Source: Mogibacterium sp.
GTDB lineage: Bacteria; Bacillota; Clostridia; Peptostreptococcales; Anaerovoracaceae
NCBI GenBank assembly: GCA_017512365.1
Contig: JAFWGQ010000069.1
Coordinates: 1-64,000, forward strand
Direction of reading: 5' to 3'
Length of the DNA stretch: 64,000 nucleotides
The translations under genes and the position numbers were made by a program. Positions within the stretch are counted from its first letter, which is position 1. Each line of letters begins with the position of its first letter. Below, one piece after another: positions 26,105 to 27,687 of this stretch. Below the pieces are notes generated by a model, which worked only from the letters and a program-made list of their open reading frames with translations, was not told the origin of the DNA and made no database searches.

Positions 26105-27439
26105 CTAGACGAGCTCGATCTTCATGAATTTCTTCTTGCCCTTCTGCAGCACGAGGCTTCCGTCCTCGAAGCAGTCGAGTGTTACCGCGAACTTCTTGTC
26201 CGTGACCTGTTCGCCGTTGATCCTGGCTCCGCCGCCCTGTATCGTCCTGTACGCCTCGGAAGTCGACGGCTCAAGGCCGCTCTCCTTGAGGAGGGCTGCA
26301 AGTCCGAAGCCCTCGCCTTCGAATCTGGCTTTTTCGATCTGCATCGACGGCATGTCCTTCGAGACTCCGCCGCCCGCGAATACTTCGCGGCTCGTCTCGA
26401 GAGCCTTCTTCGCCTTCTCTTCGCCATGGACGAGCTTGGTGACCTCGTACGCGAGGATCTCCTTGGCCTCGTTGATCGCCGATCCTTCAAGGGCCGAAAG
26501 TCTGTTGACCTCCTCCATAGGCAGGAAGGTCAGCATGCGCAGGCATGTGTTGACGTCGGCGTCGTCGACGTTCCTCCAGTACTGGAAGAAGTCGTAGACA
26601 GGAGTCTTACTCTCGTCGAGCCAGAGCGCTCCGCCGACGGTCTTGCCCATCTTCTCGCCGTCGCTCTTGAGGAGCAGCGACACGGTCAGGCCGTACACCT
26701 CGTCGCCGGTCAGCTTTCTGGTGAGGTCGACGCCTCCGATGATGTTGGACCATTGGTCGTTGCCGCCGAGCTGCGCCATGAGGCCGAAGTCTCTGTGCAT
26801 GACATAGAAGTCGTAGCTCTGCAGCAGCATGTATGAGAATTCATAGAAAGAAAGACCGATATCCCTGTCCATGCGGGTCTTGAAGCAGTCCGCGCGCAGC
26901 ATGGTGTTGACGTTGAACTGCGAACCGATGAACCTCGCGAACTCCGTGAACTTCGCAGGCCTGATCCACTCCGCGTTGTTGACGCTGACTGCCTTGCCCG
27001 GGAGCGGCTCCCTGTTCTGGCGGCCCGGAGTGTATACGCCCTCGTTGCCCTCGTACTTCCACTCGTCGTCAAAGTCGATGTACTTGTCGAAGAGCTTTTT
27101 GAACTGTCTGCAGTTCTCATCGATGGTATCGATGGTCATGACCTGGCGCATGTCGGCCTTTCCCGAAGGGTCGCCGATCTCGCCGGTCCCGCCGCCGAGC
27201 AGGAATACAGGCGTGTGGCCGTACTTCTGCATGTACATCATGGTGATCATCGGGATGAAGTGTCCGATGTGCAGGCAGTCCGCCGTCGGGTCGAAGCCGA
27301 TGTAGAACTTGATCTTCTCTCTGCCGAGAAGGTCTCTGAACTCCTTCGGATTCGTGCACTGCGCGATGAGTCCTCTCTCCTCGAGAACGTCATACACGTT
27401 CGTGTGCTTGCTTACATTGTCAGGAATAAGTGACTTCAT
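26105..27439 (-). CDS. Tyrosyl-tRNA synthetase
   Basis: Charges tRNA-Tyr. Start at the ATG at 27439, 7 nt after AAGGAG. Class I signatures: LHIGH near residue 55 and KMGKT near residue 264 (a KMSKS variant). Residues about 375-444 are the S4-like RNA-binding domain (GGGARINGEQV). 444 residues, of normal length. Transcription passes through a leader with a tyrosine-rich mini-gene (27545-27604) and an intrinsic terminator (27469-27501), so expression is likely set by tyrosine or charged tRNA-Tyr supply. No T-box motif is visible in that leader. Confidence 0.96.
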   Translation of the reverse strand: MKSLIPDNVSKHTNVYDVLEERGLIAQCTNPKEFRDLLGREKIKFYIGFDPTADCLHIGHFIPMITMMYMQKYGHTPVFLLGGGTGEIGDPSGKADMRQVMTIDTIDENCRQFKKLFDKYIDFDDEWKYEGNEGVYTPGRQNREPLPGKAVSVNNAEWIRPAKFTEFARFIGSQFNVNTMLRADCFKTRMDRDIGLSFYEFSYMLLQSYDFYVMHRDFGLMAQLGGNDQWSNIIGGVDLTRKLTGDEVYGLTVSLLLKSDGEKMGKTVGGALWLDESKTPVYDFFQYWRNVDDADVNTCLRMLTFLPMEEVNRLSALEGSAINEAKEILAYEVTKLVHGEEKAKKALETSREVFAGGGVSKDMPSMQIEKARFEGEGFGLAALLKESGLEPSTSEAYRTIQGGGARINGEQVTDKKFAVTLDCFEDGSLVLQKGKKKFMKIELV

Positions 27440-27468: not shown

Positions 27469-27501
27469 AAAAACCGGCTCCGCGTCCGTGCCGCGAAGCC
27501 G
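27469..27501 (-). terminator. Attenuator terminator in the tyrS leader
   Basis: On the minus strand CGGCTTCGCG pairs with CGCGGAGCCG (10 bp, one T-G) around a 7-nt loop and is followed by GTTTTT, about 30 bp before the tyrS start. Its left arm can alternatively pair over 8 bp with CTGCGAAG near the end of the leader peptide gene (27550-27557), which would prevent the terminator. Confidence 0.8.
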
Positions 27502-27544
27502 TAATCAACGTCTGTAAAGGCCCTGTGATCGTCTCGCAGCAAAA

Positions 27545-27604
27545 CTATCCTTCGCAGTACGAAGCTCCGTCGTAGTAATAGATTGCCGGAACGATATTCT
27601 TCAT
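27545..27604 (-). CDS. Tyrosine leader peptide of tyrS (19 aa)
   Basis: Reads MKNIVPAIYYYDGASYCEG and stop. Four of 19 residues are tyrosine, three of them consecutive. AAAGGG lies 8 nt before the ATG. The codon run is followed within a few bases by CTTCG, which pairs with CGAAG (27550-27564); the same CGAAG arm can pair with the left arm of the terminator. Ribosome stalling on Tyr codons would cover the first arm and favour the antiterminator, as in the amino-acid operon attenuators of enteric bacteria. Confidence 0.8.
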   Translation of the reverse strand: MKNIVPAIYYYDGASYCEG

Positions 27605-27635
27605 TAATATGGCCCTTTCATTTTCAGATGCTCAA

Positions 27636-27664
27636 AATATACCACTACGCCCCCGAAGTGTCAA
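27636..27664 (-). promoter_or_regulatory. tyrS leader promoter
   Basis: On the minus strand a perfect TTGACA (27659-27664), 17-nt spacer and TATATT (27636-27641), giving a start about 25 nt before the leader peptide. The -35 lies in the loop of a GCCCCCG/CGGGGGC stem (27649-27675) that could also weakly end the upstream gene; no T tract follows it. Confidence 0.8.
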
Positions 27665-27687
27665 ACTACGGGGGCTCTCAGTAAGTC

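Follow-up and report, generated by a model that had tools for sequence, protein, structure and literature searches.

Transcription of tyrS in the window, a 64,000-nucleotide stretch of a Mogibacterium sp. contig, is most likely controlled by a trp-type ribosome-mediated attenuator that senses charged tRNA-Tyr, a reading that rests on sequence and folding models and to which we assign a probability of about 0.87. The leader elements in front of the gene are real, and their parts, conservation and alternative complementarities are matters of observation. They exceed chance because the leader ORF is the only ATG-started frame of 8 to 30 codons with three consecutive Tyr codons on either strand of the 64-kb window and because the arrangement recurs in relatives. 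Several hallmarks of a trp-type attenuator are present: a predicted short ORF that has an SD sequence, start and stop codons and a series of regulatory codons, an intrinsic terminator that separates this ORF from the structural gene, and regulatory codons, for Tyr, that fit the controlled gene (Table 1). We infer that the leader ORF is translated, that ribosomes stall in it and that the system responds to tyrosine. With ample Tyr-tRNA, the lead ribosome would reach the UAG and cover region 2 just behind it, and the 3:4 terminator would form. With scarce Tyr-tRNA, the ribosome would stall on codons 9 to 11 and cover region 1; region 2 could then pair with region 3, and RNA polymerase would read into tyrS. 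In RNA that is not translated, 1:2 would form and transcription would terminate.

Table 1. Features of the tyrS leader region in the window
Feature	Position	Strand	Details
Promoter	27636..27664	-	TTGACA, 17-nt spacer, TATATT with TG ahead of -10; sigma-70 type, 11/12 consensus matches
Promoter boxes	27664-27659 and 27641-27636	-	-35 TTGACA; -10 TATATT
SD-like sequence of leader ORF	27611..27618	-	AAAGGGCC (AAAGGG ahead of ATG 27604)
Leader ORF	27545..27604	-	MKNIVPAIYYYDGASYCEG; 19 codons + TAG (27547-27545); ATG at 27604
Tyr codons of leader ORF	27580-27572 and 27559-27557	-	Codons 9-11 and 16
Region 1	27583..27588	-	CGGCAA in the window; just 5' of Tyr run; pairing with region 2 possible
Hairpin P1	27550..27564	-	CTTCG-UACUG-CGAAG, at ORF end, nested in 1:2
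Region 2	27534..27544	-	UUUUGCUGCGA (stretch also written TTTTGCTGCGA), directly 3' of stop
Region 3	27489..27496	-	UCGCGGCA, in terminator 5' arm and loop; pairs with region 2 in antiterminator
Intrinsic terminator	27469..27501	-	10-bp stem, 7-nt loop, then GUUUUU; stem 27501-27475, tail to 27469
tyrS	26105..27439	-	Tyrosyl-tRNA synthetase, 444 aa; NCBIfam TIGR00234, 398.6 bits vs cut-off 113.8

The first-pass annotation had described a TTGACA-N17-TATATT promoter, a 19-codon mini-gene with four Tyr codons and a ribosome site, and an intrinsic terminator 30 bp ahead of tyrS; all of these are present, the terminator tail ending 29 nt ahead of the tyrS ATG. By eye, promoter-like TTGACA...TGGTATATT or TGATATATT also stands ahead of tyrS in several relatives, both leader-bearing and leaderless. 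Also by eye, an inverted repeat GCCCCCG...CGGGGGC (window 27650-27678) spans the -35 of the tyrS promoter, directly past the upstream gene. When folded, the whole leader is more stable than shuffled versions of itself (z -2.81; 2 of 200 shuffles equally low). The SD-like stretch is the perfect complement of GGGCCUUU (27523-27516), which lies between regions 2 and 3, and pairing of the two could perhaps restrict leader translation. The region 2 pattern TTTTGYTGCGA matches the genome once, at region 2 itself, but the reversed control pattern has just three matches, so rarity of the pattern alone says little. A pattern search of the same genome for the motif plus CCGCR found nothing, because the terminator arm in the window reads UUCGCGG.

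Alignments of the tyrS leaders, folded with RNAalifold (A1, 17 rows; A2, 13 rows with L101, L103, L005 and L006 left out), contain four regions. Region 1 is GCAGCAA in most tyrS leaders and encodes the codons just before the Tyr run, and regions 3 and 4 are the terminator arms. Since region 3 resembles region 1 as region 4 resembles region 2, the pairings 1:2, 2:3 and 3:4 are mutually exclusive. The terminated state, consisting of 1:2, the P1 hairpin and 3:4, is paired in 92.6% of A2 cells versus 89.3% after shuffling (0 of 500 shuffles), and both partners have changed in 8 of its pairs, none of them in 1:2, versus 3.6 in shuffles. The antiterminated state, with 2:3, a middle hairpin and P1, is paired in 87.5% of A2 cells versus 82.8% when shuffled. 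In a broader alignment fitted to the model structure (A4, 32 leaders of several genes), both-side changes occur in 23 of the 26 pairs of the terminated state, including 7 of the 9 pairs of 1:2, and P1, in which 3 of 6 pairs are changed on both sides in A2, has such changes in all 6. The covariation of the terminated state on this structure-fitted alignment is 0.421, versus 0.208 when shuffled (0 of 500) and at most 0.120 when slid. Taken alone, 2:3 does not exceed shuffles in covariation on A4 (83.6% versus 82.9% paired), and slid versions reach at most 41.8%. Pairing of region 3 with the motif after the stop is uninterrupted for 9 or more base pairs in 13 of 17 leaders and spans 5 to 7 in the other four (L032, L048, L104 and L055), which bears out the expectation of the first-pass annotation that alternative pairings would recur in relatives. 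In the window leader, 1:2 comprises only 6 bp.

Predicted folding responds to the position of the ribosome once the terminator is kept from completing. We masked a chosen footprint, which began 13 nt upstream of the first nucleotide of the P-site codon and ended 15 nt downstream of it, specified the terminator arms explicitly, cut the transcripts ahead of region 4, and called 2:3 predicted at a mean probability above 0.4. On these cut transcripts, 15 of the 17 leaders are predicted to form 2:3 when the ribosome is on a Tyr codon, 8 of 17 without a ribosome and 2 of 17 when it is at the stop, compared to 58 of 340 predictions in a control with a scrambled motif. When the arms were instead located by folding only the final 45 nt, they were misplaced in L051 and L100 and 2:3 came out weaker (13 rather than 15 of 17), so this definition was dropped. 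At equilibrium, the terminator of full-length leaders prevails wherever the ribosome is placed (mean probability 0.86-0.98) and 2:3 exceeds 0.4 in 0-2 of 17, so that the ribosome states are not separated and kinetic control must be assumed. Attenuation of the trp operon is a kinetic switch, and its leader likewise has mutually exclusive 1:2, 2:3 and 3:4. The window leader itself reaches a 2:3 probability of only 0.04 when stalled, with AAAGGGCC at the SD paired to GGGCCUUU; with the 5' end masked too, the prediction for 2:3 is 0.61 in the stalled state and 0.0 once the ribosome has reached the stop. For L103, masking of the 5' end is needed to obtain 2:3 at all, and its probability is then 0.81 whether the ribosome is stalled or at the stop, so no switch is predicted for that leader. 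Across the set, mutually exclusive 1:2, 2:3 and 3:4 are thus found as complementarity and as model prediction, and they are weak in the window's own leader. The attenuation geometry proposed at first pass is supported by the recurrence of Tyr runs and alternative pairings and by the lack of a detectable T-box, with the predicted switch being weak in the window leader.

The distribution of the leader was examined at 110 loci of tyrS homologues, comprising the best 30 from one search, in which 137 of 148 genomes matched, and 80 from another; 108 had a usable start, giving 97 distinct upstream stretches. A leader was counted where a short ORF with three consecutive Tyr codons is followed by TTTTG(C/T)TG, or by TGTTGTTG in L100, with 450 nt upstream of tyrS covered for the codon run and up to 1200 nt for the motif. 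Such a leader is present in 17 of the 97 stretches, and 80 have none within these spans; the Tyr codons that the first-pass annotation had expected in orthologous leaders recur in tyrS leaders of relatives. L040, with three consecutive Tyr codons that lie inside a longer reading frame without the motif, was not counted. The Tyr run is found in 17 of 17 leaders by selection, because they were chosen by it. The third bases of the Tyr codons, which had no part in the selection, vary at each codon (TAT:TAC of 14:3, 14:3 and 3:14). The leader peptide reads, for example, VAAIYYYDGAS in close relatives, and HKQAYYYLFS or NNNNYYYYSS in more distant ones; the divergent leaders L005, L006 and L103 retain the Tyr run, motif and hairpins despite changed sequences. 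The distance from stop to region 2 is 12-15 nt in these three, 3 nt in L100 and 0 in the other 13. Two pairs among the 17 (L035/L101 and L048/L049) are near-copies. The nearest relatives are metagenome-assembled genomes titled Mogibacterium sp. or uncultured Clostridiales bacterium, and those with a family label are assigned to Anaerovoracaceae.

On a tree of 95 of the 97 stretches (L066 was dropped for too little upstream DNA and L103 for a broken tyrS reading frame), a single clade of 34 rows (support 99/96) contains all 16 rows with a leader, and the leader label changes 6 times versus 15.0 times with shuffled labels. This pattern suits a single gain followed by several losses but does not prove it. 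Eighteen of the 34 clade rows were counted as leaderless, one of which, L047, has a displaced leader; it is apparently the same 4949-base contig as L127, which carries the leader. In both, an IS66-like transposase gene (L047:609-2177, minus strand) sits between the Tyr leader with its terminator and tyrS. Three close relatives, L033, L052 and L054, retain the promoter and a terminator-like hairpin and have lost the leader peptide, and their tyrS upstream regions appear to be leader relicts. At some leaderless loci, tyrS lies close behind another gene, upp-like by reading of the sequence.

Leaders of the same kind extend beyond tyrS. Covariance models were built from 13 tyrS leaders (R1) and from 32 leaders (R2). 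R1 recovered the tyrS leaders L005, L006 and L103 from outside its training set and matched 36 of 349 genomes of the family. R2 was run on 393 genomes of the order and matched 73 of them, in 21 of 158 genera; all but one of the matched genomes (G518) belong to the window's family. Within the genus, R2 matched 33 of 47 genomes (E 0.01), G185 only through a hit without a leader ORF. All 110 listed matches from the R1 and R2 searches were examined by script, and the downstream gene was sorted by protein motifs into 46 DAHP synthase, 22 tyrosine phenol-lyase (TPL)/tryptophanase-like, 19 tyrS, 2 tyrA and 21 unsorted genes, the last including those of L136, L216, L218 and L219 and two more leaders on tyrS contigs, L123 and L127. 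A short ORF with at least three consecutive Tyr/Phe codons occurs in 100 of the 110 (L201 and L220 only under a lenient ORF rule), a count that is not an independent test because the models contain Tyr codons and any ORF frame and start was allowed. Ten matches have no such run (L139, L140, L231-L237 and L216). We took L139, L140, L231 and L233-L237 to be false hits, and L232 corresponds to the leaderless relict of L054. Because at least two false hits (L139 and L140) have E below 0.001, R1 E-values are rough, and because the relicts L033, L052 and L054 score similarly to L103, an R1 score alone is no proof of a leader. At L216 (2960-3200, minus strand), a gene for a three-domain TPP enzyme, in our reading probably acetolactate synthase, follows a leader ORF rich in Ile, MVTFRQISAIISIIIGIAITGNASLALC, and a terminator-like repeat.

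DAHP synthase leaders (46 loci, e.g., L147-L149, L151, L171, L172, L174 and L177-L185) carry Tyr/Phe runs. In the one locus checked, L147, the enzyme matches NCBIfam NF006421 at 481.5 bits against a cut-off of 335, and in the two loci read the following genes are tyrA and aroA (L147) or tyrA, aroA and aroC (L148), where the best match of L147 tyrA, below cut-off, is to a prephenate dehydrogenase model, and aroA and aroC were assigned by reading of the sequence. Runs of 5-8 Tyr codons precede the TPL/tryptophanase-like gene (L130-L135, L142, L144-L146, L150, L153, L154, L170, L173, L175, L176, L192, L194 and L226-L228), whose protein stays below the cut-offs for tyrosine phenol-lyase (441.3 of 720.7 bits) and for the two tryptophanase equivalogs (400.6 of 750 and 332.3 of 825.8 bits). 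For a catabolic enzyme of this type, induction by tyrosine shortage would be odd. A leader also precedes a TrpX-like ABC binding protein in L136 (284.5 bits against a cut-off of 390), and Tyr/Phe leaders stand before a sodium:solute symporter family gene in L219, assigned by Pfam, and in the similar L218, a candidate aromatic amino acid transporter. L230 has a six-Tyr-codon leader before a xylose-isomerase-like TIM barrel family gene (Pfam PF01261), an unexpected target. In the window's own genome (92.9% completeness, 6.94% contamination), the search for DAHP synthase TIGR01361 found nothing, although 11 of 14 genomes were positive in its control, and a search run without a control gave no TPL-like gene either. 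Given that completeness and contamination, these results only hint that the organism is a tyrosine auxotroph.

The first-pass annotation had placed the antiterminator arm inside the ORF, and a version of the same attenuation in which CTGCGAAG (27557-27550) pairs with CTTCGCGG (27498-27491) deserves comparison with the post-stop arm. Both complementarities it described, CTTCG with CGAAG and the 8-bp CTGCGAAG:CTTCGCGG duplex, exist in the window leader, and the duplex energies are close (-13.1 kcal/mol versus -13.8 for the post-stop arm). Among relatives, the arm inside the ORF keeps its register in only 5 of 17 leaders (L002, L035, L101, L043 and L053), in contrast to the long post-stop pairing in 13; the conserved arm is thus the post-stop UUUUGCUGCGA (27544-27534), and we set the other aside as unlikely. 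A more radical alternative would dispense with translation altogether, a T-box or other tRNA-sensing riboswitch governing tyrS with the Tyr codons as its RNA specifier. T-boxes do precede tyrS in other members of the family, in at least G018 and G029 by coordinates and G015 with an extrapolated tyrS start, and at least one T-box match occurs in 58 of 60 family genomes. At the leader, however, the T-box covariance model RF00230 finds nothing, although this search does pick up a T-box elsewhere in the genome, the single one detected there, at 74.2 bits before thrS (best match TIGR00418, 351.5 bits, just below cut-off, the protein being cut by the locus end). The claim that no T-box core is visible is thereby borne out, and the T-box was rejected as the leader's identity. 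Searched with 4227 Rfam models at gathering score, the window matches neither the T-box nor amino acid leader families, and with E up to 10 the leader region yields one weak opposite-strand match to an unrelated sRNA family (E 0.09). T-boxes are likewise absent from 11 leader-bearing tyrS loci (E up to 0.01) and 9 leaderless ones (E 0.01), 20 tyrS loci, mostly leaderless, have no T-box or other Rfam match at gathering score, and neither do 18 leader-bearing loci of several genes have any Rfam match at that score. Only 103 nt separate the leader ATG from the terminator, and start, stop and Tyr codons are conserved while the Tyr third bases vary; both points speak against a riboswitch without translation, an account that we consider very unlikely.

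The preferred reading, attenuation by a translating ribosome with a post-stop antiterminator arm, must also be weighed against simpler and more exotic uses of the same parts. The terminator could be constitutive and the upstream ORF non-functional, with the likeness among leaders reflecting recent common descent only; several close relatives without a leader do keep the promoter, and the apparent relicts L033, L052 and L054 also keep a terminator-like hairpin. Common descent alone sits poorly with the divergent leaders, in which Tyr run, motif and hairpins persist while the sequences have changed, and with leaders of the same build, bearing Tyr/Phe runs, before other aromatic amino acid genes, and we regard this explanation as quite unlikely. 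Alternatively, the leader peptide could act as a nascent-chain arrest switch of the TnaC-like family that senses free tyrosine rather than charged tRNA. The leaders with 5-8 Tyr codons before the TPL/tryptophanase-like gene would fit this model, as induction by excess tyrosine is more sensible if the enzyme degrades tyrosine. Across genes, however, it is the codon run and not the peptide after it that is conserved, and the alternative stems fit stalling at the codon run, so that we hold such a switch to be very unlikely.

The family-wide set of leaders is the more interesting part of these findings. Tyr/Phe leaders would constitute a sizeable group of ribosome-mediated attenuators in Clostridia that are mostly uncultured, without an Rfam match in the 18 loci tested, and they hint at the substrates of the transporters and of the TPL/tryptophanase-like enzyme. 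We tentatively speculate, at somewhat less than even odds, that the leader is a portable cassette, one RNA frame in which the codon run is swapped and which has spread over genes of the family as a ribosome-based alternative to T-boxes. The frame itself, in which GCAGC underlies regions 1 and 3 and GCUGC underlies regions 2 and 4, with codon runs of Tyr, of Tyr/Phe and, in one genome, of Ile, is a similarly tentative part of this idea. Equally provisional is the range of targets that the cassette would serve in this one Clostridia family, namely tyrS, DAHP synthase operons, the TPL/tryptophanase-like gene, tyrA and transporters. In Firmicutes, tyrS is a model T-box gene. Within a single family, we find it behind a T-box, behind a leader peptide, behind apparent leader relicts or at a short distance from a preceding gene, which should make the replacement of one tRNA sensor by another traceable among near relatives.

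Among known systems, the closest are E. coli pheM-pheST and the trp, his and phe leader-peptide attenuators, in which a cognate codon run, alternative stems and a terminator are combined. The leader described here shares with them the codon run, 1:2/2:3/3:4 and the terminator, and with pheST an aminoacyl-tRNA synthetase target, and it differs in its Tyr codons, its tyrS target, its Clostridia family and its lack of a match to Rfam leader families. T-boxes, by comparison, bind tRNA directly and without translation. The literature searched contained no Tyr leader-peptide attenuator before tyrS, which is weak evidence of absence, as most subscription papers fall outside its coverage. The B. subtilis tyrS T-box senses tRNA-Tyr (PMC2494555); the gene is the same as here, where no T-box was detected. 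Ribosome-mediated attenuation of a synthetase gene has been predicted for uORFC-8-2, a uORF with tandem cognate codons before cysS in Rhodobacterales, which has Cys codons and a different structure and belongs to alphaproteobacteria, as opposed to Tyr codons and Clostridia here, and the same source lists uORFC-13-1 before aroF (DAHP synthase) of Acholeplasma as a candidate uORF attenuator with Phe codon(s), whereas the aroF leaders here have mixed Tyr/Phe runs (PMC8632094). Two further papers describe His leader peptides before hisS*/hisZ in bacilli (PMC2965389) and candidate His attenuators before his operons in five Eubacteriales species (PMC9413887); these are likewise leader peptides in Firmicutes, where T-boxes are usual, with His in place of Tyr/Phe. 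In Streptomyces, classical attenuators precede trpS and leuS, so that the targets are again synthetases; the phylum is Actinobacteria, and that study reports no conserved RNA structures before tyrosine operons there (PMC1262725). For other amino acids and in other phyla, leader-peptide control of aminoacyl-tRNA synthetase genes is thus already known or has been proposed, and the putative Tyr leader before tyrS would be a well-supported new addition to the leader-peptide attenuators.
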